Source of the DNA: Polytrichum commune
Lineage: Eukaryota; Streptophyta; Polytrichopsida; Polytrichales; Polytrichaceae
Assembly (NCBI GenBank): GCA_950295325.1
Contig: OX485805.1
Location: 49,624,758 to 49,688,757 of the forward strand
Direction of reading: 5' to 3'
DNA length: 64,000 nt
Positions 9,359 to 58,240 of this stretch are shown one piece after another (position 1 is the first letter of the stretch; each line of letters begins with the position of its first letter). The notes beneath the pieces are model-generated. The model was not told the DNA's origin. It ran no database searches and saw only the letters and a program-made list of their open reading frames with translations. The position numbers were made by a program, and so were the translations under genes.

Positions 9359-12238
9359 CTAAACTGGAGCAAGTGGGTTTGGTGACACAGTAGTAGTAGC
9401 CCACACGAAGAAGTCACACTTCCCACCTGCAGTAATTGTCCACTTGCCACATGAGAAAAACTCTCGCCCATGTGACGACCCGGGCTTCTTCACCAAGCGT
9501 TTCTTGCTCTTGACTCCACAATGGCACATTAAGTTCGACTCATTGAGGTCCTTCTTTGATGTGCCTAAATTTTCAAGGCTGGAAGGAGGTGGCGTAACCT
9601 TAGGCCTCTTTAACAAGGGCATGGTGATCTTTGTGCCATCGTCGTTGTAAATTTTGAACGAGTTTGTCACCTGTAACCTCACTCCTTGCTTTACTAATTC
9701 CAGTGCAAGGTACGCCGTGTTCCTTGCATCGTCCAGGCCACAGTGTTGTCGGCCCTCCCATGAGCGGCCTGTGAGCTCTACAGAGCCTTTCAGATTTGTT
9801 TTGATGTCACCATATTTTTGCCGGAATGGTACCTTCAAGTTGATCCATCTGCAATGTTAACGAATCAAATTAAGCGATTGACTTATAGTATGGGGATACG
9901 TACTCAAATGACATGCCAGCCGTTTCTCCTGAAATTTAAAAACCTGAGAGTTGCAATGAACCCTTAAAAGCCTAGACATTGCAAAATGGGACTCCCCACT
10001 TTAAATTGACGGACCTTGCTAAAAATTGGGTAATATTTAGCAGTTTGTTTTTCACACATAGCTATTGAAATCGCCTATTATAAACTTCTGAAGCTTGATC
10101 ATAAAAATACATCGACGGTTATTGTCAATGTCTCATGAAGTGTTCACATCTCACAAGACATTTTGACAACTCTGCCACTTGAAGAACATAGAAATGCTTG
10201 CCACTCCATGGCATTTATGAGTTAATCATATCAAGGTACTCATCAAAACAATGAGCTTTGTGTTGAATATGGGAGGATAAACAATATGTTTTATCCTCTC
10301 CCATACTACTGAAGTATGTAGCCAAACAATTCAGATGAAATTCCAAATTCAAGGTATCCGGTAGCCATATGAATCTGTAGATGCAGCTGTAGAAGCACAA
10401 ACTGTGCAAAACTTGCTATCAGATAACCAAAATGTCGGCACATCCATTGGAAGCCTATAAAGTAGTGCAACTATTTTGTGTGTATTTTTATTCATACCTA
10501 TTGAAATATGGAGGTTTCTGCACACATTTCCACTTGCACTCTGACTCCAACATCACCTTGCAGTCCCAGTCAGACCATGTTGCCACTATGAACCGCTTCC
10601 CTTTCACATTGTTCTCCTCCAACCAAACATCATGCATTTGAAGGGCTTTTCCCAGCGGCACCCCATTGTCAACCTACAACCAACAATGACACAGTGAAGT
10701 ATTAAGCAAGAGAAATTCAAGTTGAATGAGCAACTCTTTACTACCAAGTTCCTCATTTCGCAGAGTTCATAATCTTCTGAATGCTTTGACCCTAGGACAT
10801 GGTCATGGTTGTAGAATACAGCAAAGTATCCTGACAAATCTTCAGCAAGTGAGTGATGTTAATCACACATGTTTTTTTCAATTTCTTTCATATTTCAACT
10901 CAAATACAGCAATTCGAAATGTCTAGTAGTGTCTAATACAACACATCTGCAGATGTATCACACTGGAGCAGACCACTCTTTATGAATTGACCATTTTAAG
11001 GGCCATATTGGACATGATTTATTCACAAAGTGAGATCTATCACCTTATGACAAGGCATGAATCAACTTTTCCTTACAATGCACATATTAATTTTCAAGAG
11101 GGTTTTAGGGTTTAGGGAAGTTCCAGCATTTGAGTTGATATCACATTTTGTTTCTGAAAACTGGTGTTGCATGACCATGCCCCCCACGTATAGATGCAGC
11201 TAACAGAGTTTTCCTCTAACTCAACATGACTTTTGGTCCGGAGTTGGTTGTTTTGCACACAACACCTTCCATGTTTGGTAAATTTTTGGTGCATGCTTGG
11301 AGGTAGTCACATGGAGGTTTGAACAAACCCATTGAGTTCAGGGATACCTCTAATGTGTTGAGCGTAAAGACTGCAGACTCTACAGGTGATAAGAAACTTA
11401 GCACAGCTTTCTATGTAGAAATTATGATGTTCTACTCACCAATCACTGACCTGCTCTTGTTGAATACCAGTGAGTCTTTTGCAGAACTCTGTGAGCTGGG
11501 GATGACAAACAGGCTTGACATATGTGCGGAATACTGCCTGAATTCTTAAAGTTTCCAGATTCACCAGCACCGCCGGAAACTCTATGATTTCTTGAGGAGT
11601 TAACGATGTCTTGTTATCACATGTTGCCTCAAAGTCAATAACCACAAGATAATCAAAATAGGGAGGTGCTTTCAAGAACCCTAAAACCGATGCTATGGTT
11701 GGTTGTTTGTGCTTCACTTTGACTTCACACCCTTGTGCTGGCAGACATGGAACCCTTATATCCAAATTGGCCGCTCCATCTGGTTCAAAAGTATATACAA
11801 CATTTGATCCGGAATGCGACTCTCCTGCATTCATCAACTCTTCTTGTACATCTAAGCTTTTGAGAGGTCTACGGTTTATAAATGACTCTTTGAGAGGATC
11901 TGCCAACCCTGTAACTTGTACATCATCGTCGCTTCTTCCACACCGTTGCACATTCACAGAAGGCATCTGAGAAAGATTCCCTTCATGTTGACACCTTTTC
12001 TCTGAAAATATTTTTCTTTCAGTGGTGAGGGAAATGCTACTACGAATCAATCCATCATTATAACTACAAGGACTCAAGGTTGGTAATTCTCCAAGTACAC
12101 CTGTACTGCCAGGCTCATCCGATTTCAGTGAATGCAAAGAATTACTTGAACCCTTGTGAGTTTGTTCAGGGCATATAACACTTCTATTTCGAGACTGGAG
12201 ACGCAAAAGAGCAGCCTCACGGTTCCTTTGCATCCGCT
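9359..12238 (-). CDS. ERI2-like 3'-5' exonuclease with C-terminal GRF zinc finger (N-terminus unresolved)
   Basis: Three exons are clear on the minus strand: 12238-11451, 10673-10498 and 9848-9359, joined by GT-AG introns in matching phases. They give about 483 residues after a short unresolved start. All DEDDh exonuclease residues are present: D and E in VIDFEATCD, D in TWSDWDC, H and D in HCGLDDARN. The C-terminus is a GRF zinc finger: CHCG, then GREFFSC, then CDFFVWA. An ERI1-type exonuclease domain plus GRF finger is the animal ERI2 arrangement. Family members trim 3' ends of small RNAs, histone mRNA or rRNA; the exact substrate here is unknown. The first about 190 residues (RMQRNREAALLRLQSRNRSV onward) are low-complexity and lack a known domain. 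Phase requires a one-base codon start from an upstream exon, probably within 12790-13100, that I could not fix. The introns hold fold-back repeats at 11112-11300 and 12330-12760. Confidence 0.85.
11112..11300. repeat. Half copy of the fold-back family (intron)
   Basis: One arm only: CTCTAACTCAACATGACTTT, GGTCCGGAGTTGGTTG, TTTGCAC and GGTGCATGCTTGGAGGTA appear in the same order as the left arm at 12363-12466. It lies in the intron between exonuclease exons 11451-12238 and 10498-10673. Confidence 0.65.
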
Positions 12239-12329
12239 CTGCAGTCATGTAGAGAAAATGCTTCAATTATGATTTCACACAAAGTATGTTTAGCTGCTGA
12301 CAATCCATTGACTCAAACCAGAATTTCGC

Positions 12330-20565: not shown

Positions 20566-23500
20566 ATGGTAAAAGTGCATGTTGCCCCGCCAGGGGGTTG
20601 GGTACCTGAGACCATCAATCCGGATAGATGGGCCGACAATATGCTCAAAGCATGGAAGGTGTGAGATTCATATGCATTCAACTATCTACATGTAATATGT
20701 AATGTGTATCTTATATTACAAAATTCATGTAATGTTTAATGAACCCAAATTACATGCATCCTAGATTTACATTTAAAAAAAACCTAAATACATTCAATAT
20801 AAAAAATGATGTATAATAGTGTGATGTTGCTATCAAATTTGAAACTTCATTTCCTTGGCCAAGGAAAACCCAACTTTAATTGTTACATCTTCACTAACAA
20901 CTAAGATTTGTTATCAAAAGCTTCAATTTTTGTGCAAAAAATACAGACTGCAGCATATCACAAGGGTATCCATGTGCAAAAGAAAGCCGTGTCCCTTTTG
21001 AATGTTGGTGAGCATCTAAACTACATAAATAAATCGCTTGTAGTGTATATATAGTCTTTCATAGTTCATGAATCTATAGCAAAGTTGAAGCTTGGCCTTG
21101 AATGACTTTATTTTGGACAAGAATATGCAATGATTTCAATCTTAGCTGCTACTTCATAACTCACGTATTAACTATTCTCAATCAATATTGATTTTTGTTG
21201 CCCAAAGATGAGGCCGACCCTGGTGACCTTGTGAACACACCAAGGTCTTTGCAAGCATGTCTTCTCCTTGGTATCGATCCAAGCGAGATCCAATATCGGT
21301 ATAACTTTGTACTTCCTTCTACACTTAATTCACAATATACATATAGAGAGAGAGAGCTTATCTCTAAGTCCCGTAAGGGTTAGAATTCAATCATAATAAC
21401 ATTGGACAACCCTCATTGAAATTCAATGTATCACTAAGTATGAATAAACTTAGTAGTCTTTTTTTAGGGTGGGTGGGGTGGGGGGCTCTTCCCAAAATAT
21501 ATTTTGGGACATAATAGGTCTTGCTTTTGTTAGAAAGTGAACCTAGATAACTATCATTGTGAGGTTTGTGAAAAAAATTCTAGCACATAAATGTATTAAA
21601 TATCTTACTATTTCATCCTCAACAAAACCAACGAAGTAAGAATCAAGCTTGATGCTCCCATGTAGTCTCCCTCTTTTGGGAGTGGTTTTGAACAACCTCC
21701 TAGTGGAGCTCATATTTTGAAAGGAAGGCATTACACATTGTATTATACCATAGGAGAACCCATGAGCAATACATGGCCAATGAGTTATATTTTATAATCT
21801 CAATGCAAAGCATTGATCTGAGTAAGCCTATTCATTCATTATCATGTTGAGGTTTCAAAAAATCAAGTAATCCCCCCCTAAAATAGGAGTAATATTTTTT
21901 TCTACAAGAGCAACGAATTACTTTGACCAAGAAAAACAAATATAATAAAGAGCCTAGAGTACTTAATGTGTCATAATTCTTGTTCCACCTCATATAATGA
22001 GAACCTAATATGTCTTTTGATGTGTTGTGGATTAAAACATAAGAAGCATTGAAATAATCATACAATATTTACATTTTGATGATCTTGTCTCTTTTGTAAT
22101 TGTACAGAATTTCCAATATGAATATGTAACAAAGAACTTTGGAGTGCAATAGATTCAAACTCAATTGTACCAACTTTTTGACGTCTTTTGTGTATGTTTT
22201 TGTTGGGTTGAGTTGCGAAAGATCACTCTACTTGTTATTAAATATATTGAATGTTTAAATATGACAAAGCATATGACTTGTTGCTTCAAACTTATATTGC
22301 ATTGTAGGTGCTGTCACGATGGACATCGGGGCTCACAACCTTGTTCGAATTATCAACACAGTTGATTGATTGATGTTTTTGATCATTTAGGTCTGTGCTT
22401 TGAATCTCAAAAATGTATCTAGTAGTTGCTGTATTAAATAATAATAACATTGGGTTCAACATGAGGAAATATAGCACCTGTAATTGCATCTAATGACTTC
22501 ATTTAATTTCTTCATCTATCTAAATAAGATATGACAACAAGGTTACCTTTCAGTAAAATTGCTCAAATCGTTAGATCAAAAGCTCTCTTGAAACTTGAGT
22601 ATTATAATGAAGGCAGAGAATGAAGGTTTTGACGTCATCATGATTTATTGATAAGCATAATTATTGTTTATAGTCCCCCAAATTGCTTGGGAAATTCAAT
22701 GGTTGACTTATGATATTTGAAACATGTTTCTCAAACCATTTGTGTGTCAACAGGTAACAAAACTTGATGTTTGATTCCAATTGTTCCCACTTAGTAAACA
22801 AAAACAAGCCTTTGTAGTTTACACCTTTCTAGGGGGTGATGGTTGGTATCAATGGAGTTGTAACAAACATAATATCATCCTTCATACCCTTCCAAGTTTT
22901 CATCATGTTGGTAAACATTGGACTTCTATGAAATACTCAATAGAAATTTAAAATTTAAAATTCAACAAGGGTTGGAGTTGTGTATATATGGATTGTGGCT
23001 AGTACAATAACAACTCTTGGAAACAAATTTCAATATGTGTGAAAATTGCAAGGGCAATCACAGCCAATGTCCCAAAAGGACCAAATATTGTTTCTTGCAA
23101 CTTCATCATCACTTGTGTTTTATTTTTTTAACCATGTATTTGAATGCTAAAATCTATGTTGTTGTTATAGAGATGTGTCGTATTTCACGGAGCGAGGTTT
23201 GAGCAAGGAGTTGCAGGAAATAAAATTTCAATATAGTGAAGTCCAAAGACGAGGTGACCAAACTTGCACATTAAGGAGGAAAATGGACTAATAAATATTC
23301 TATTGCATCAACAACAAAAAAAACAAAATAGTATAATTTTATCGCTCGTTATGTTATACAATAGATTTCTATGATATAGAACTCAACAAACAAATAGGTT
23401 TTCTCAATGTCACAGTGCATAGTAAAGAATTATTTTTTTGGTTGTATGTGTGTTGTGGGGGGGGGGGTTGATGTGAATTTTAATAATGATGTGTAACCCA

Positions 23501-26500
23501 GGTAAGTTGAAAAGACTCATTGACGAAAGAGAGAGAATAATCAAAGAGCATGATACTGGAAGTGTTTTTATTGAAAATGGAAAGGTTGTTCAAGGAGCTG
23601 GCCAAGGAGGGGGGAAACAAGCGGTTGCTTCTGAGGCTCAACAAAAGGTCTCTAAAACTAGCTATCCTAAAATACATTTACCTCATTGGCTTCGAATCAA
23701 TGTAACAACTTTGTTGTATGTACCCCAATGATATTAAAAGATGACAACGCTCCAACACTAGACCAAATATTATTATCCCAATATATAATTTTTTACGATT
23801 TCAAGAATTAAAGATACATAAGTTGTTTGATGGGTTGACCTATATGAAAACAACTTGGTTAATGTTAATTGGTTAATTGATTAGTTGGGTTCAAAATGTT
23901 AGTTGTTCTTTGTTGAGATATTAGCTAATGTGGCCACCAACGGTGGAGTCTCCATGTCATGTGGTTGCATGTAGTATCAAGATTCATGTTTCAAATCATG
24001 TTAAACTAAAGGTCACATATGTATGTATTTTGACCAACAGCTACATCTCAAAAAAAAGTTATGATGTTCACATTCTCATTTCTAATAAAGAAACTTGTTG
24101 AAGTTCTAAAACGACAAGTCCACATCTAAATACGAGTGGGGATCATAATATTCTAATGAATTCGAAACTTTCAAAACTTTGCATGAATCAAGAACATTTA
24201 GTGTGATCAAACAGGCTCTTGCCAAAGCCGCAGTTCAAAAGAGGAGGATGGAAAAGGAAATGGCTAAGAAACGAGCACTTGAAGAAATGAAAAAGTTAAG
24301 CTCATTTCTCATGTAATTTTACGAGATTATGTGAAACTAGATATGTTTTATAAGTTCACATTTGATCTTTTTGTTATCTAAGGTATTGTTATGGTTCCCG
24401 GTCCTTCCCTCTTACATTATGAAATAAGCAAACAAGTGATTGTACATAGTCCATTAAGGGTCATTTCAGACAATATGGTAATCCACACACCGTGAATGAA
24501 TAAACTTATAAAGTTCAAACTTGAATGAAGCTTCAAGTTTGTATATAACTTGAATGACGTCTCTAAATCAAAACCCCAATATTTGGAACCGACACCCTAC
24601 AAAGTGATGCATGGTGGCCAAAATTTGTATTCCTAAATCAAGTTACTATTGTTTGTGAAAATGGAACATTGGATATGAGGCTCCTTTTAATAGTGAGTCT
24701 AAGAACTATCTACAAAAATTTGTACATAGGAATGATTGGTGTGTAAGTGCAATTTTCTTAGTTATAGATATTGTTTCTATTTGGTTCACATGAAACTTAG
24801 AGAGTAAGACATGAATTAGTTTTGATGAACATTGCAGGCCATGGAAAAAGAAGCCAAAAGGGTAGCTGAGGTTCAAAAAAAAAAAGAAGCTGCACAGGTG
24901 AAATGATAAAACATACTATGTTGAATTAATGTTTTAGAATCACATGTTCACTTCTTTATTGTTTCAAAATGGTTTTTGAGTTGCCAAAATCTATGAATGA
25001 TGTTAAGTAGGCTAGAAAAACTTTTCAAAACAATCTTTTGATCTTGAAACGATTGTAGAATGTTAATGTGAACGCATGCGAATTGGTTGAAGTTTACAAA
25101 TGGTACTTCATTCTTTCATGATAGAAAGCGGAAAAAGCAAGAAAAGACAAAGAATTTGCAGCTCAACAATTTGCTAATGAACAAATGAAATTAAAAGAGG
25201 CGGAAGAATTAGAGAAGAAATCTAGAAGATTGGCTGAGCAAAAATACCAAGAGGAGATCAAATTGGTAGCTACAAAGGCAATTGCTGCAGTTAGTTCTCA
25301 AATCCATCTTAGTTCACATACTTTTATATTTTGTACTTGCTAATATTGTTCAAACCTCATGCCTAGGATTACTATTGTGATGAATACGTCTCCCATGTCT
25401 TCACAAAGTAAAATGGTTTGAATGCTTGACGTGCAAATTATGACCAAACTTTCCAAATATGCATTACCTTATATGAAAATGATAAAATCGCAACAAATCC
25501 CATTTGTGTCCACACACAAAACTCATTATAAACATCTATGCTTTTGGATTGTATTCAATATAATCTTAAAGGATGTCTTTATTTTTTGTGATAGAAAAAA
25601 GCGAAGAAACTGGCTATACAAAAAGAAAAGAAAAGAATGCAAAAGCAAGAAGAGTTCCGGAAACAGTTAGAAAAAATACAAGAAGAGTTGATAAAGGTTT
25701 GTAACCTTGTCCATACCTTAGTATTAACTTGTCACCAATTACATTGTAGCATCTCCTTTTTGTGTATATACATAAACATCATATTATTGAATAATAAGTC
25801 TTTGTAAAACATGAATTTTTGTTAATAAAAGAACATTCTTTATCAAAGTGTTTTCCACATCATATGCATATACGTAGATATGCAACCTATTAAACGAAGT
25901 TTGGCATTATATATATATATAATGATATCATATGTATCAAACATCTGAAGTTCAATTTGGAATGATTCAGAAAGCTGTGCAAAGAGAGAAAGAAATGAAA
26001 GCCAAAGATGCAGCTCGAAAAAAACTTCAAGAAGAGAAAGCCAAAGAGCTTGCAAAAGCAAATGCTTTTGCCCGTGCCGAGGCCGAAAAACGACAAGAAG
26101 CAGCAATAGCAACATGGCTTGGATTTTTACAAAAGAGAAAGGATGACTATGAAGCGAAAGTCAAAGTAATTTATATATATACATATATAGATAGATGAAT
26201 ATGATGATCTAGATTGTTTTAACTTTGACATGTTAATTCTATGAGTCTATGTTCCATGATTTCACCCATAGTTTATCAAGATTTTGACAATCAAGATTCC
26301 TGAGAACCTAGCAAGGACCGGTTAACACATGGAGTCTCAAGTCCCAACATGGAGGCAAAGTCCCAGCTTTGGAACCTCAAGAAACCATTAAAATATGGTG
26401 TATATTCATTAAAGTTGGATCTGAATTATTTTATGCAAAAAAAAAATCACAAGACTGTGTGGAGAGGTGGGTCCCAAGCCTCACCTTCAAAAAGTGTGGC

Positions 26501-28480
26501 CATGTAGGCATCCATGTCATATCTGGGACTTGGGACTTGGAACTTGGGACTCCATGTGCAATGGCGAAGTCCCAACTTCCAAGCTCTCAATGGTTGACAT
26601 TGCATAGATTGACCTGAAGTGACTTGGGACTTGGGACCCCGTGTGAACTGGCTCTAAGTAGATTTGTTTAAAAATAAAACGCAAAACGCAATGCAAAAGG
26701 GTGTCAGTTTCGTATTTTCATTTCTACATTTATTATTTTTTCCCCCATCTTGATTAAGCCTCACGTTAAAATACAAATCGAGCTCCACTAAACTTTGTAT
26801 GTTGCCACCATTTGGAAAGGCACAAAAAATAAAAGCGAAAGAGAAATTGATGATATGGAAGAAACAACAAGCAGAGAAGAAAGCTTATGAAGAACAGAAA
26901 GAACAGGACCGGCTCAGGACCATCAAAAATGCAATCGAGAGACGAGAAAAACGGGCTGCCGTGAGTCTCAAACCCTCTCAACACCCATCATGTTTAAAAT
27001 TTTGTGCATGTCAAAGTATAACTTGAAATATTCTGTTACATAATAAAACTAAACAAATTAGCCTACAAAGAGTTTATAGTTCAACCATAACCTAATTAGG
27101 CTTCGTAGTTTAAGTGTTTTGAGTGTTCTTTCCACAAGGGCCTTTGACTTGCAAGGCTACAGTTTGTTAGATATTTGACATGTTGTAACTTGACAATTGT
27201 TATAATCATGCAAAGATCTTTCGAAAATTTGATCATAATACAAACCCTAGGTTTCAAGAACACTGTAGAAACATGATAATAATAATGATGACAAGTGTCG
27301 TTTATCTTTATGCTACAATTCGATCCCATCACTATGAAGTTGTGATCCACATCACATGTTAAAAGTTCACTTCATTGACTATTTGTCGAGGAGGAGGTTT
27401 ATAGTCCTTTCCTGAAATGCCGTCCTCTGAGGCGGCCACGTCACTTTCTAGGGTTAGGGTTAAGCCTCCTCCTAGAAGACCTGGTTGTCATAAGTTTTGG
27501 GTTTCTGAGCAGTGATGGAGTTTGCAACCTCTTCAATCTGCTACTCTTGCTGTCCCCTGTTCCATAAGGGTGACGCACCTGATGTTCATATTTTTTATTG
27601 CAATTGCATTTGTCTGTCTGAAGTTTGAATCCTCGGAAGTTGATATTATACATATGCACGTTATGAGCAGGAGAACATGGCAAAGGCAAGGCAAAAGAGA
27701 AAGATGTTGGAGAAATATTTGGCAGAAAGAGAAAAGGAGAGGCAAAAACACATTACTGAACAAAACTTGCAATCTTTTGCTCAGTATTGGCGTTGTCAAC
27801 AAACTGCGCGCAATCAAGTAAATTTACTCCCAAAACTTGAATACATCATTTTTCACTACACTAAATAGGATATTTAGTGTTTGATACACTACATACGAAC
27901 GCATACACTAAATATCAATAACCCTATGAAAGTAAGTAACCTTAAATGTAAACTCAAACACTAAATACCAACTATGGTAATATGTGGAAGTTACATGTTT
28001 GAATTTAGTGTTAGTAAGGATATGAAAAAAACTAAAAAAATAAAAATGATAAAAAAAGAATTCCAGCATATCTTCTAACACTAATTATTAAAAAATTGAA
28101 AATTAATGTTGAGCATGATAGGGTGGTAATAACATTAAATATAATCAAACACTAATTATCCTATTTAATGTATCTTTTTGGATGCTAGGTGTGTAGCTTT
28201 TCCAATACTATAACTACAAGATTAAATAGGAAAGTTTGATCAAAACATTACTACGGTTGGATAATGTGTAACTACAAGCAATCACTTGAACCAAAGATAC
28301 TAATGATGGTCACATCGCTTTGGAAATTTGCAGGCACTTCATAGAAGACAACTACTCGATGAAATTGAGAAAGCAACTGCAAAAGTTAAAAGTTTACTTG
28401 ACGCTAGGGTAGATATTCAAAAACAACGGCAATTACTCCAAGCTAAAGAGATGTGGGCTCACGCTTATGGGCATAAATAA
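20566..28480 (+). CDS. Coiled-coil protein, CCDC177/DUF4659-like, probable sperm-flagellum component
   Basis: Thirteen exons join in consistent phase: 20566-20658, 20947-21007, 21208-21298, 23171-23253, 23502-23647, 24215-24294, 24838-24897, 25125-25289, 25595-25696, 25971-26165, 26820-26960, 27671-27817, 28334-28480. The product is about 503 aa. It starts MVKVHVAPPGGWVPETINPD and carries TPRSLQACLLLGIDPSEI near residues 60-80, a motif like the one before the coiled coil in CCDC177/DUF4659 proteins. From about residue 95 to the end it is almost continuous Lys/Glu/Ala coiled coil (RLIDERERIIKEHD ... AKEMWAHAYGHK). There is no signal peptide or membrane segment. A flagellar role is inferred from similarity. 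Exons after 24838 are all phase 0. The exon 24215-24294 is one base short of phase 0: five A's precede donor GTTAAG where six would keep frame. This could be a homopolymer error, a real frameshift, or use of an acceptor inside the next exon. Exon 5's donor (GTCTCT) is weak. Confidence 0.8.
26470..26645 (+). repeat. Low-complexity CTTGGGACTTGGGAC tract in intron
   Basis: Repeated (C)TTGGGACT / TTGGAACT words within the intron between exons 25971-26165 and 26820-26960. There is no coding continuity with the flanking exons. Confidence 0.6.
27859..28170. mobile_element. MITE with CACTAAATAGG ends and TA target site, in the last intron
   Basis: The left end CACTAAATAGGATATTTAGTG is complementary to the right end, which reads CACTAATTATCCTATTTAATG. 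TA stands directly outside both ends (27857-27858, 28171-28172), as in Tc1/mariner (Stowaway-like) insertions. The length is 312 bp. It sits wholly in the intron before the last coiled-coil exon, so it need not disturb the protein. Related ends occur at 43385-43601, 60925-61144 and 63418-63624. Confidence 0.7.
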
Positions 28481-37609: not shown

Positions 37610-37890
37610 TCTGATTCCCTCTCCTGTTCCTCACAACCTGAGAAGATGGGCCTCTAAATTGGGTTGATCCTCTCTTCCTCCAATCCTCTCCTATTCCTGA
37701 CAACCTGTGAAGAGGGGCCTCCAATTTGGGTCAATCTCCTCTGCCTCCAAATCCTCAACTATTCTTCACAACCTGTGAATCTGGGCCTCAAAAATTCCGT
37801 TGCTCTCCTCTTCATCCAAATCCTCTACTATTCTTCACAACCTGCGAAGATGGGCCTCGAAATTGTGTGAACTTCTCTTTCTCTGAACTT
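37610..37890 (-). repeat. 67-69 bp tandem repeat just upstream of the small gene
   Basis: Four units each contain ATTCYTCACAACCTGYGAAG followed by GGGCCTC and CTCCTCTTCCTCC. The anchor ACAACC stands at 37633, 37700, 37768 and 37837. This is the 5' leader or promoter side of the gene at 37166-37576. A further block, AAACAAATCCTTCACAAT, occurs at both 37588 and 37967, so a larger duplication overlies the array. Confidence 0.8.
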
Positions 37891-54800: not shown

Positions 54801-55875
54801 GATTCAGATTCCCTTGCAAATAACCACTCACTTACTTTCGAGTATTAGACCTGCCGAAACTGAAATCTGCTCGCGTGGTATTCAGATTCTCGTACCACAA
54901 GTTACAACCTCCCATTCTCAGTAACAAAACTTAACCTCTTGGCGCAGAAACTTGAATCTGCTCACGTGAACAAGCTTCAGATTCTCTCACAAATTACCAC
55001 CAATCACTATTGAGTGCCACCAGACCTCAACGTGCCTGCCAGAACTCAAATCTGCTCACGTGAGCTTCACACTCTCTCTTACGCAAACCACCTCCCATTT
55101 TCCAGTGACACGTCCTTAATCTCTCGGAGACAAGAACCTTGCATCTGCTCATTTGATGCAAGCTTCGGATTCTCTTGCAAGTCATCACCACCACCAATCA
55201 TTTTCGAGTGCCAGTCTACTATAACCTTTTAGTGCAGATGATGAACACTTAAAATTTTGATTCGTGTTTCCTTACAACGCACTAAACCACTCCACCCTGA
55301 AACAGCTCCAAAATGGTTAATCCTCCAAAGCTAGCTGCATCCATCCCCATTGCGCACCATTAAATTCTACTGTTACACAACATCATCTGCTTGTGATGTT
55401 GATCGGCGGTTGTGGTGGTGGCAGTTGCTGTTGCTGTTTGGTTGGTTGGTTGGTTGGTTGGTTGGGACTTAACCCTGATGAAGACGATGTTGATTTACTA
55501 TGGTCCTACCTGTTGGTTGAAATTGTGCTGCTGCTGGAGGAGGTAGAGTTGCTCACGCGCCATGGCGAGCTCCTCCTTAAGCTTGGACACCTGGTTCTGC
55601 AAGATGGTGATGACTCCCAAACAGCCGTGCACCGGGTCCTTCTCTCGAGTATCAGCCTCGTAGGCGATGGACTTCACCGTGTCCTCACGCTTGCTCGGGT
55701 CAACGTGCTTGAGGATGCGCAGGATGTTGGAGACTCCGAACAGCTTGTGCACGTTTTGGAACCGCTTTGGCTGGTCGGGTGGGAAGTAGGGTGACAACGG
55801 ACAGTCCGGTGTGCACTTCCTTCGCTGGTACTTGCAGGCGGCACACGCGGTGTTCGTGCCACCCGACCCCGTCAT
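51843..55875 (-). CDS. Class I LBD (LOB-domain) transcription factor, 342 aa
   Basis: Three exons: 55875-55510, 54406-54162 and 52260-51843, with GT-AG introns and matching phases (0, then 2). The N-terminal LOB domain is complete: the zinc-finger-like block CAACKYQRRKCTPDC (C-x2-C-x6-C-x3-C), the GAS-type block FQNVHKLFGVSNILRIL, the DPVHGCLGVI motif, and the leucine-zipper-like LQNQVSKLKEELAMAREQL found in class I members. The rest is a disordered Ser/Gln/His-rich tail with a nine-His run (51908-51936) and a short conserved-looking end GVYLTLTNNH. LBD proteins are plant-specific DNA-binding nuclear factors for organ boundaries, lateral organs and vascular development. The exon 3 start uses the acceptor CTTCTTCAAGCAG at 52261-52273; the stronger-looking one 32 nt upstream would force a stop within 13 codons, which could be a second isoform. 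Intron 1 holds a degenerate tandem array. The start is the first ATG before the LOB domain. Confidence 0.92.
54440..55235 (-). repeat. Degenerate minisatellite in LBD intron 1
   Basis: Roughly eight imperfect units of about 80-100 bp share GCAGAAACTTGAATCTGCTC, CGTGAGCTTCAGATTCTCTT and ACCACCTCCCATTTTCAGT. The AATCTGCT anchor recurs near 54482, 54651, 54780, 54870, 54953, 55050 and 55143. It fills most of the 1.1-kb intron. Confidence 0.75.
55436..55466 (+). repeat. (GGTT)n microsatellite next to the LBD exon 1 donor
   Basis: Seven GGTT units (TTGG on this strand) lying about 45 nt inside intron 1 from the exon 1 donor. Confidence 0.9.
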
Positions 55876-57080
55876 CGCAGCTCAACAAATCCCTCCAACA
55901 CCCTTCCCCTTCCCTTTCCCTTCCCCTACCCCTTCCCCTACCTTACCTCCCTCCCCCAAAACGTCCACCAAAATCCCTACTCCTACTCCTCCTCCACCGC
56001 TGTCGCGGCGGCAGCAGCAACAACCCCCACTGCACCAATCCTCATCATCATCTTCGCAACACCACCATCACCATCCTAACCCTACCCCTAAAAATTCCTC
56101 CGCATGAATCAATCCACCTCCTTCAACCAATCCTTCTCTCTCTCTATCTATCTCTCTATCTATCTATTCCTGTCTATCTATCTGATCTTCACCCTCCTCC
56201 TCCTCCTCCTTACACGCAACGACACAGCGGCATCCCCGAACCTGGATTTATCATCATCGCCGAATCGTCGGCCTTGGGCATGATGACCCCATGACCCTGG
56301 TGGGCTTATTGAGAGGAGCTCATGTAGCGACGACGACGAGAGTGTAGCGCTCGACGATGAAGAATGCCGACGAGGAGTGGGAGGTTGGTGCGATCCAGGT
56401 GGTTGGCGAGAGGCGGGTTCGGGAAGTAGGCCGTGGAAGGAGAGGAAAGAAGAGGACAAATGGGGGGTAGGGCTGGGGCCCGGGGCTGGGCTGGGCTAGG
56501 GGACAGATCGAGAGAGACAAGGCGCGAGGGGGTGCTGACGGAGCGGAAGAGAAAACTTTGCAGCGATCATGCTACTCCAGACTAAAGTTACCAGAAGTGT
56601 GATGGGGGGCCGGGAGCTGCGAAGAGGGGATCAGGGAGGGAGCTCTTCTCGGTGATGAGGAGAGGAGGAGGCAGCTGAGCTAGCTAGCTACCTAGCTACC
56701 TAGCTACCTAAGCTGGGCTAGGAGTGGGGCCTTTGATGAGTCTTCCCAACAACCCGCCTTCCTGAATTTTGTCACTGCCGGGCTCCCTCCCGCCGGCTAC
56801 TAGCTCCCATGTTCATCCACCTGATCAGCATCGTGTGATGACGCCGTCGAGCGCTTCTATCGACTACTCAACCTGAAGAAGAAGAAGAACAAGAAGAAGT
56901 TGGGCGCAGCGACGTCGCGATGGCGATGGCGATGACGAGCAGATGATGAGGAAGGTGAGGAGGGGCGCTGCGAGTAATTCTTAACTTAACTCGCGGGCAC
57001 TAGTGTCGCTCGCTCGCTCTCTAGCTCCAGGCGGAGGAGGAGCTGGGGGTCGCTACGCTAGGCTAGGCTAGGCTAGAGCA
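55876..57080 (-). promoter_or_regulatory. Purine-rich leader and promoter region of the LBD gene
   Basis: On the coding strand this about 1.2-kb region is GA/GGA-rich: CT, CCT and TATC tracts on the given strand at about 55900-55990 and 56130-56215. It also carries (AGCT/ACCT)n at 56680-56712 and (GGCTA)n at 57055-57076. GA tracts are typical of long 5' leaders and GAGA-type regulatory DNA of plant developmental genes. Upstream ATGs exist on the coding strand (for example at 56459), so upstream ORFs may affect translation. The transcription start is not determinable by eye. Confidence 0.45.
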
Positions 57081-57264: not shown

Positions 57265-58240
57265 AATGAGAATGTGACGTTTTACCAAACGCAGTCATTC
57301 GGGGTCTACAATGTCCGCCCAACCCATTGAACTCTCGTAAGTGGAAGTTGAACTCCTGAGGAAGATGTTATTGCACTGCGTAACTCCAGCTAGTAACACG
57401 CTCTAATTGGGGTGAACGATGTGCTCAACCATCTAAGATGCCAACTTCACCCCGTGTACTGTGAGAATGTGGTGTTTTACCAAGCAAAGTCATTCGGGGT
57501 CTACAATGTCCGCCCAACCCATTGAACTTTCGTAAGTGAAAGTTGAACTCCTAAGTAAGATGTTATTGCACAGCGTAACTCCAGCTAGTAACACGCACTA
57601 ATTGGGGTGAACGGTGTGCTCAGCCATCTAAGATGCCAACTTCACCCCGTGTACTGTGAGAATGTGGTGTTTTACCAAGCGAAGTCATTCGGGGTCTACA
57701 ATGTCCGCCCAACCCATTGAACTTTCGTAAGTGGAAGTTGAACTCCTAAGTAAGATGTTATTGCACGGCGTAACTCCAGCTAGTAACACGCACTAATTGG
57801 GGTGAACGGTGTGCTCAGCCATCTAAGATGCCAACTTCACCCCGTGTACTGTGAGAATGTGATGTTTTACCAAGCGAAGTCATTCGGGGTCTACAATGTC
57901 CGCCCAACCCATTGAACTTTCGTAAGTGAAAGTTGAACTCCTAAGTAAGATGTTATTGCACAACGTAACTCCAGCTAGTAACACGCACTAATTGGGGTGA
58001 ACGGTGTGCTCAGCCATCTAAGATGCCAACTTCACCCCGTGTACTGTGAGAATGTGGTGTTTTACCAAGCGAAGTCATTCGGGGTCTACAATGTCCGCCC
58101 AACCCATTGAACTTTCGTAAGTGGAAGTTGAACTCCTGAGGAAGACGTTATTGCACTGCGTAATTCCAGCTAGTAACACGCACTAATTGGGATGAACGGT
58201 GTGCTCAACCATCTAAGATGCCAACTTCACCCCCGTGTAG
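57265..58240 (+). repeat. 195-bp tandem satellite, five copies
   Basis: The anchor GGGGTCTACAATGTCCGCCC occurs at 57301, 57496, 57691, 57886 and 58081, exactly 195 bp apart. Units differ at only a few positions, so amplification is recent. Each unit carries GTAACTCCAGCTAGTAAC and GCACTAATTGGGG, resembling the inner terminus of the MITEs at 43385 and 60925. The sequence just left of the array (CCAATTAGT...CGGAGTTACGCCG, 57218-57258) is the inverted counterpart of the unit's CGTAACTCC...ACTAATTGG. No open frame spans it. Confidence 0.92.

Follow-up and report, generated by a model that had tools for sequence, protein, structure and literature searches.

Does a plant nuclear gene encode a relative of the animal protein CCDC177, and if so, on which part of the protein does the kinship rest? 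The locus that raises this question lies within a window of 64 kb, by which we mean the whole stretch of DNA analyzed here (64,000 nucleotides). Below we describe the gene model, the conserved module at the N-terminus of its product, the charged region that follows it, and the functions that the protein may serve.

Gene model of the locus

The 13 exons at 20566-28480 (+) join in phase into a reading frame of 1512 nt, corresponding to 503 aa and a stop codon (Table 1). This model had been proposed in a first-pass annotation, and it was borne out by a coding signature and by an in-frame stop preceding the ATG. G+C at codon positions 1, 2 and 3 was 0.556, 0.321 and 0.355, respectively, compared with 0.324 in the introns, a clear coding signature. 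Of the 12 introns, 11 begin with a GT donor and all 12 end with an AG acceptor. The chance of finding an open frame in intron sequence of each exon's length ranged from 0.009 to 0.243; since the exons had been chosen as open, these values were not multiplied into a test. A tblastn search within the window (E ≤ 1) returned 10 matches, all lying on or across the exons, with no second copy. The exon 3/4 and 4/5 joins are independently supported by the relatives described below, since the conserved module spans both.

Table 1 Exons of the plant gene, with positions counted from the first letter of the window
Feature	Position	Strand	Remarks
Exon 1	20566..20658	+	Start codon; in-frame TAA five codons upstream
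Exon 2	20947..21007	+	AG acceptor, GT donor, phase kept
Exon 3	21208..21298	+	Contains NTPRSLQACLLLGIDPSEIQY, the module start; aligned with L015 and provisional human CCDC177
Exon 4	23171..23253	+	Module linker and FQYSEVQRR
Exon 5	23502..23647	+	KLKRLIDERERIIKEH, the module end, then a Gly-rich stretch
Exon 6	24215..24295	+	Donor AAG/TTAAGC (slash, exon end), non-GT; GT reading ends at 24294
Exon 7	24838..24897	+	Alternative in-frame acceptor gives a start at 24861
Exon 8	25125..25289	+	Charged rod
Exon 9	25595..25696	+	Charged rod
Exon 10	25971..26165	+	Charged rod
Exon 11	26820..26960	+	Charged rod
Exon 12	27671..27817	+	Charged rod
Exon 13	28334..28480	+	C-terminal end and stop codon

Only one join, that of exons 6 and 7, qualifies the gene model, which is otherwise sound. 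The donor of exon 6 (24293-24301) is the sole non-GT donor among the 12. It has four possible explanations, any of which would suffice: an error of one base in the assembly, a genuine non-GT donor, use of the GT that lies one base before it, or skipping of the exon. Use of the GT one base before the exon end, together with the alternative AG acceptor of exon 7, stays in frame and gives 495 aa, while skipping of exon 6 (81 nt, phase 0) leaves the frame intact and, by arithmetic, gives 476 aa. The missing GT could also be taken as the mark of a pseudogene, with the locus being a decaying copy. We consider this very unlikely: the reading frame with its start and stop codons is intact, as are 11 of the 12 introns, the site can be bypassed in frame in two ways, the codon-position signal is clear, and an assembly error of one base accounts for the donor equally well.

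A conserved N-terminal module

The TPRSLQACLLLGIDPSEI motif is located in exon 3, and belongs to what we designate the PRSL module (residues 62-126 of the plant protein). The motif, written as a degenerate DNA pattern, was run over prokaryote genome contigs (84,980 species), giving 18 stretches, of which 17 were judged by eye on translation to be chance matches. The remaining one is real, and lies on the 3571-base contig JARLIC010000049.1 (hereafter L015), filed under a Paceibacterota MAG. Translation of L015 revealed, after the motif, the same tail as in the plant protein. Its gene contains three GT...AG stretches of exactly 30 nt, removal of which yields one 544-aa frame, with a start that is not fixed, comprising the module and a charged rod. 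Because three 30-nt introns occur in one gene, we read L015 as a mis-binned eukaryotic contaminant; the introns of the plant gene, in contrast, are 200-1872 nt long.

A profile scan of 379 genomes of the phylum under which L015 is filed produced one match, in the same genome. The dynein family had no match in that genome, and control genomes were equally silent. Among viral contigs, no relative emerged from the 19 stretches picked out by a protein scan that used the first 185 aa, or from the 25 of a profile scan, and no match was found in PHROGs. The DNA motif occurred in six stretches of the viral contigs, three of them identical, all of which were rejected as chance by eye on translation.

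The human CCDC177 sequence used for comparison is provisional: the C-terminal piece is backed by a match to DUF4659 (see below), whereas for the N-terminal piece the match to L015 is the only backing. The plant protein and the provisional N-terminal piece aligned over 84 aa with 33% identity (E = 5e-10, taken as one comparison), a result reached by none of 5000 shuffles. The likeness to CCDC177 noted in the first-pass annotation therefore holds for the N-terminal module, as judged with the provisional sequence. The plant and L015 modules were 38% identical over 76 aa (E = 4e-15, again as a single comparison). With shuffles that kept the place of each residue modulo seven, the module z-scores were 20.6 for plant and L015, 15.5 for plant and provisional CCDC177, and 15.7 for L015 and provisional CCDC177. 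The part following the motif, which had played no role in the motif scan that found L015, was significant by itself in every one of the three pairs (0 of 5000 shuffles each).

The three sequences define a consensus of PRSLxACxxx(G/A)(I/V)xPxE(L/I), a linker of 21-25 residues, [FY]xxxExxRxxKL and ERxxI, with 15 invariant columns. The spacing from PRSL to KL is 48 residues in the plant protein, 50 in CCDC177 and 52 in L015, and the order of module followed by charged rod is common to all three. No curated profile was found for CCDC177-like proteins, and no Pfam family for the module. The plant protein carries the N-terminal PRSL module with the conserved tail of these proteins. Since the module is common to CCDC177 and to a eukaryotic protein, that of L015, it is probably older than the split between plants and animals. 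This N-terminal module is thus a conserved part of CCDC177, common to a plant and another eukaryote, and the question is no longer one of an animal family but of an old eukaryotic one, open to study in moss or liverwort. With three sequences to define it, the module, which probably dates from early in eukaryotic history, can now be searched for.

DUF4659 and the charged rod

The first-pass annotation had likened the motif to that of CCDC177/DUF4659 proteins; the link to DUF4659 (Pfam PF15558) was contradicted by profile search. The joined 503-aa protein matched no Pfam family at E ≤ 10, a negative to be read with the knowledge that HMMER filters can discard biased sequences. Its last 243 aa matched only Crystall_3 (0.099) and BING4CT (8.1), both under the cut-offs, and residues 1-129 gave only a weak SMN_YG-box match (0.075), also under the cut-off. 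The pieces of L015 scanned against Pfam had no DUF4659 match, and its exon gave weak rows only (RelB, 0.13; TMEM247, 0.16), again under the cut-offs. The control for the DUF4659 scan was the provisional human CCDC177 sequence. Its C-terminal 390 aa aligned with positions 2-373 of the 374-position PF15558 profile (E = 4.2e-110). The PRSL motif falls in its N-terminal 99 aa, and these matched no family in Pfam. The motif thus lies outside DUF4659, which covers the other end of CCDC177. Membership of the plant protein in DUF4659 was rejected, as neither the whole protein nor its last 243 aa matched the profile; the two are alike in their charged, coil-like composition only. In a literature search, DUF4659 was not found named.

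Residues 151-503 of the plant protein are 70% E, K, Q, A or R, and the ~350 residues after the module probably form a highly charged helical rod. The earlier description of this region as a coiled coil was not borne out, as heptad periodicity was not found in it: in a simple windowed power test (range 3.2-4.0, two residue sets), the hydrophobic peaks, at 3.42 and 4.0, were reached by 77 and 64 of 500 shuffles. The L015 rod also had no hydrophobic periodicity (263 and 230 of 500 shuffles reached the peak), and the provisional CCDC177 piece peaked weakly at 3.66 (21 and 26 of 500). For the plant rod, a single charged helix is possible.

Comparison of the rods gave z-scores of 4.1 for plant and L015 (0 of 1000 shuffles), 4.3 for L015 and provisional CCDC177 (1 of 1000), and 1.0 for plant and provisional CCDC177 (164 of 1000). 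The corresponding values for the C-terminal ends were 3.1 (12 of 1000), 3.7 (4 of 1000) and 0.55 (289 of 1000). The plant protein thus resembles L015 in both module and rod. With animal CCDC177 it has in common the N-terminal module, a near-equal spacing and a long charged rod, but the two rods are not alike beyond shuffles. These results bear on the suggestion that the plant protein is a true DUF4659/CCDC177 orthologue, with a C-terminal part that has diverged past recognition. Such a history would accord with the homology of the module to provisional CCDC177 and with the L015 rod, which forms a bridge by matching those of both plant and CCDC177. We nevertheless regard it as unlikely, given that DUF4659 was matched neither by the plant protein nor by the L015 pieces scanned, and that the direct plant-CCDC177 comparisons of rods and C-terminal ends were not significant.

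A single-sequence search of the PDB gave no row below E 0.5. With a three-row profile, 11 rows were obtained at E ≤ 10, the best four being two designed helical repeats (0.00051 and 0.008), ZapB (0.0025) and ribosomal L29 (0.043). As no PRSL motif is present among the alignments listed (5 of the 11 rows), we take the best of these rows to be chance helix matches. Weak matches to RelB antitoxin were seen in both Pfam (0.13) and the PDB (0.34 and 0.56), with L015 1169-1402 and the three-row profile, respectively, over the PRSL...GIDPSEL part of the module; these perhaps reflect a shared local helix-turn likeness, or chance. When the L015 exon was modelled as a single sequence, the model, itself weak (mean pLDDT 70.5, pTM 0.32), contained short helices at residues 4-10 and 23-29 and longer ones at 33-50 and 55-77.

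Possible function and genomic surroundings

We propose, at slightly less than an even chance, that the plant protein is a rod protein of the cytoskeleton, of old eukaryotic descent, that may belong to the flagellar apparatus of sperm. The plant nuclear gene encodes a protein of about 500 aa, in which the conserved N-terminal PRSL module is followed by the charged rod. As the likeliest mechanism, we infer that the rod would run along microtubules or another cytoskeletal array, and that the module at its N-terminal side would dock a partner. For a land plant, the likeliest site may be conjectured to be the flagellar apparatus of swimming sperm, at the basal bodies, axoneme or microtubule ribbon. 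Should the plant gene prove sperm-specific, it would add one more unknown part to that apparatus. Possible, but on the doubtful side, is a broader scheme in which the PRSL module is the mark of an ancient eukaryotic flagellar-apparatus rod family. Unicellular eukaryotes and plants whose sperm swim would have retained this family, and animals would have put it to another use as CCDC177. Flagellate sperm are found in non-seed plants, cycads and Ginkgo, and Cycas has most of the genes for flagellar assembly (PMC9023351).

The protein could instead be a general cytoskeletal rod with no special tie to flagella, serving interphase or division arrays and kept in many plants, including flowering plants. 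This is a serious alternative, if somewhat short of an even chance, and is favored by the lack of a cilia link in both the structural and the literature searches; none of our results argues directly against it. None of the 11 PDB rows obtained with the three-row profile, which was run without an axonemal positive control, is named ciliary or axonemal; since the profile has three rows and lacks such a control, the absence of ciliary chains is weak evidence. CCDC177 together with 'cilia' was not found in the literature search. Judged by titles and abstract openings, the CCDC177 literature listed deals with tissues of humans and animals, among them brain, blood and tumours, and none of these titles or openings addresses its mechanism. 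In an exome study of male hypogonadism (PMC10784340), CCDC177 variants were frequent, occurring in 8 of 9 normosmic patients and 4 of 13 in the NC group, and the available part of the article offers no mechanism and contains no word starting with 'flagell'. Literature on plant flagellar proteins and splice sites provided nothing mappable to the plant gene. As for retention in flowering plants, Hodges et al. 2011 (PMC3268115) describe 21 of the 4,802 proteins examined as conserved in ciliated species yet retained in non-ciliated land plants, with a ciliary origin inferred; because of these 21 proteins, a flowering-plant orthologue alone would not refute a ciliary past.

Ten other open frames of the window were compared with Pfam, and five matched: a LOB domain, an ERI1/ERI2-type exonuclease, a GRF zinc finger, a C2 domain and a protein kinase fragment. 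No tRNA was found in the window, and no Rfam family reached its gathering score. An exon at 55501-55881 (-) encodes a LOB-domain (LBD) transcription factor (Pfam LOB, E = 3.3e-41), with one PDB match, Ramosa2; the LOB domain is a plant marker. The region 9362-12266 (-) contains the frame of an ERI-type 3'-5' exonuclease (RNase_T), for which the best PDB match is ERI1 exoribonuclease 2. The GRF zinc finger lies in a separate open frame downstream of it within the same region, and the two may possibly belong to one gene; exonuclease plus GRF zinc finger is the layout of animal ERI2. The window also contains two tandem arrays, one at 57267-58239 with 5.0 copies of a 195-bp unit (96% matches), and the other at 37618-37883 with 3.9 copies of a 67-bp unit (78% matches).
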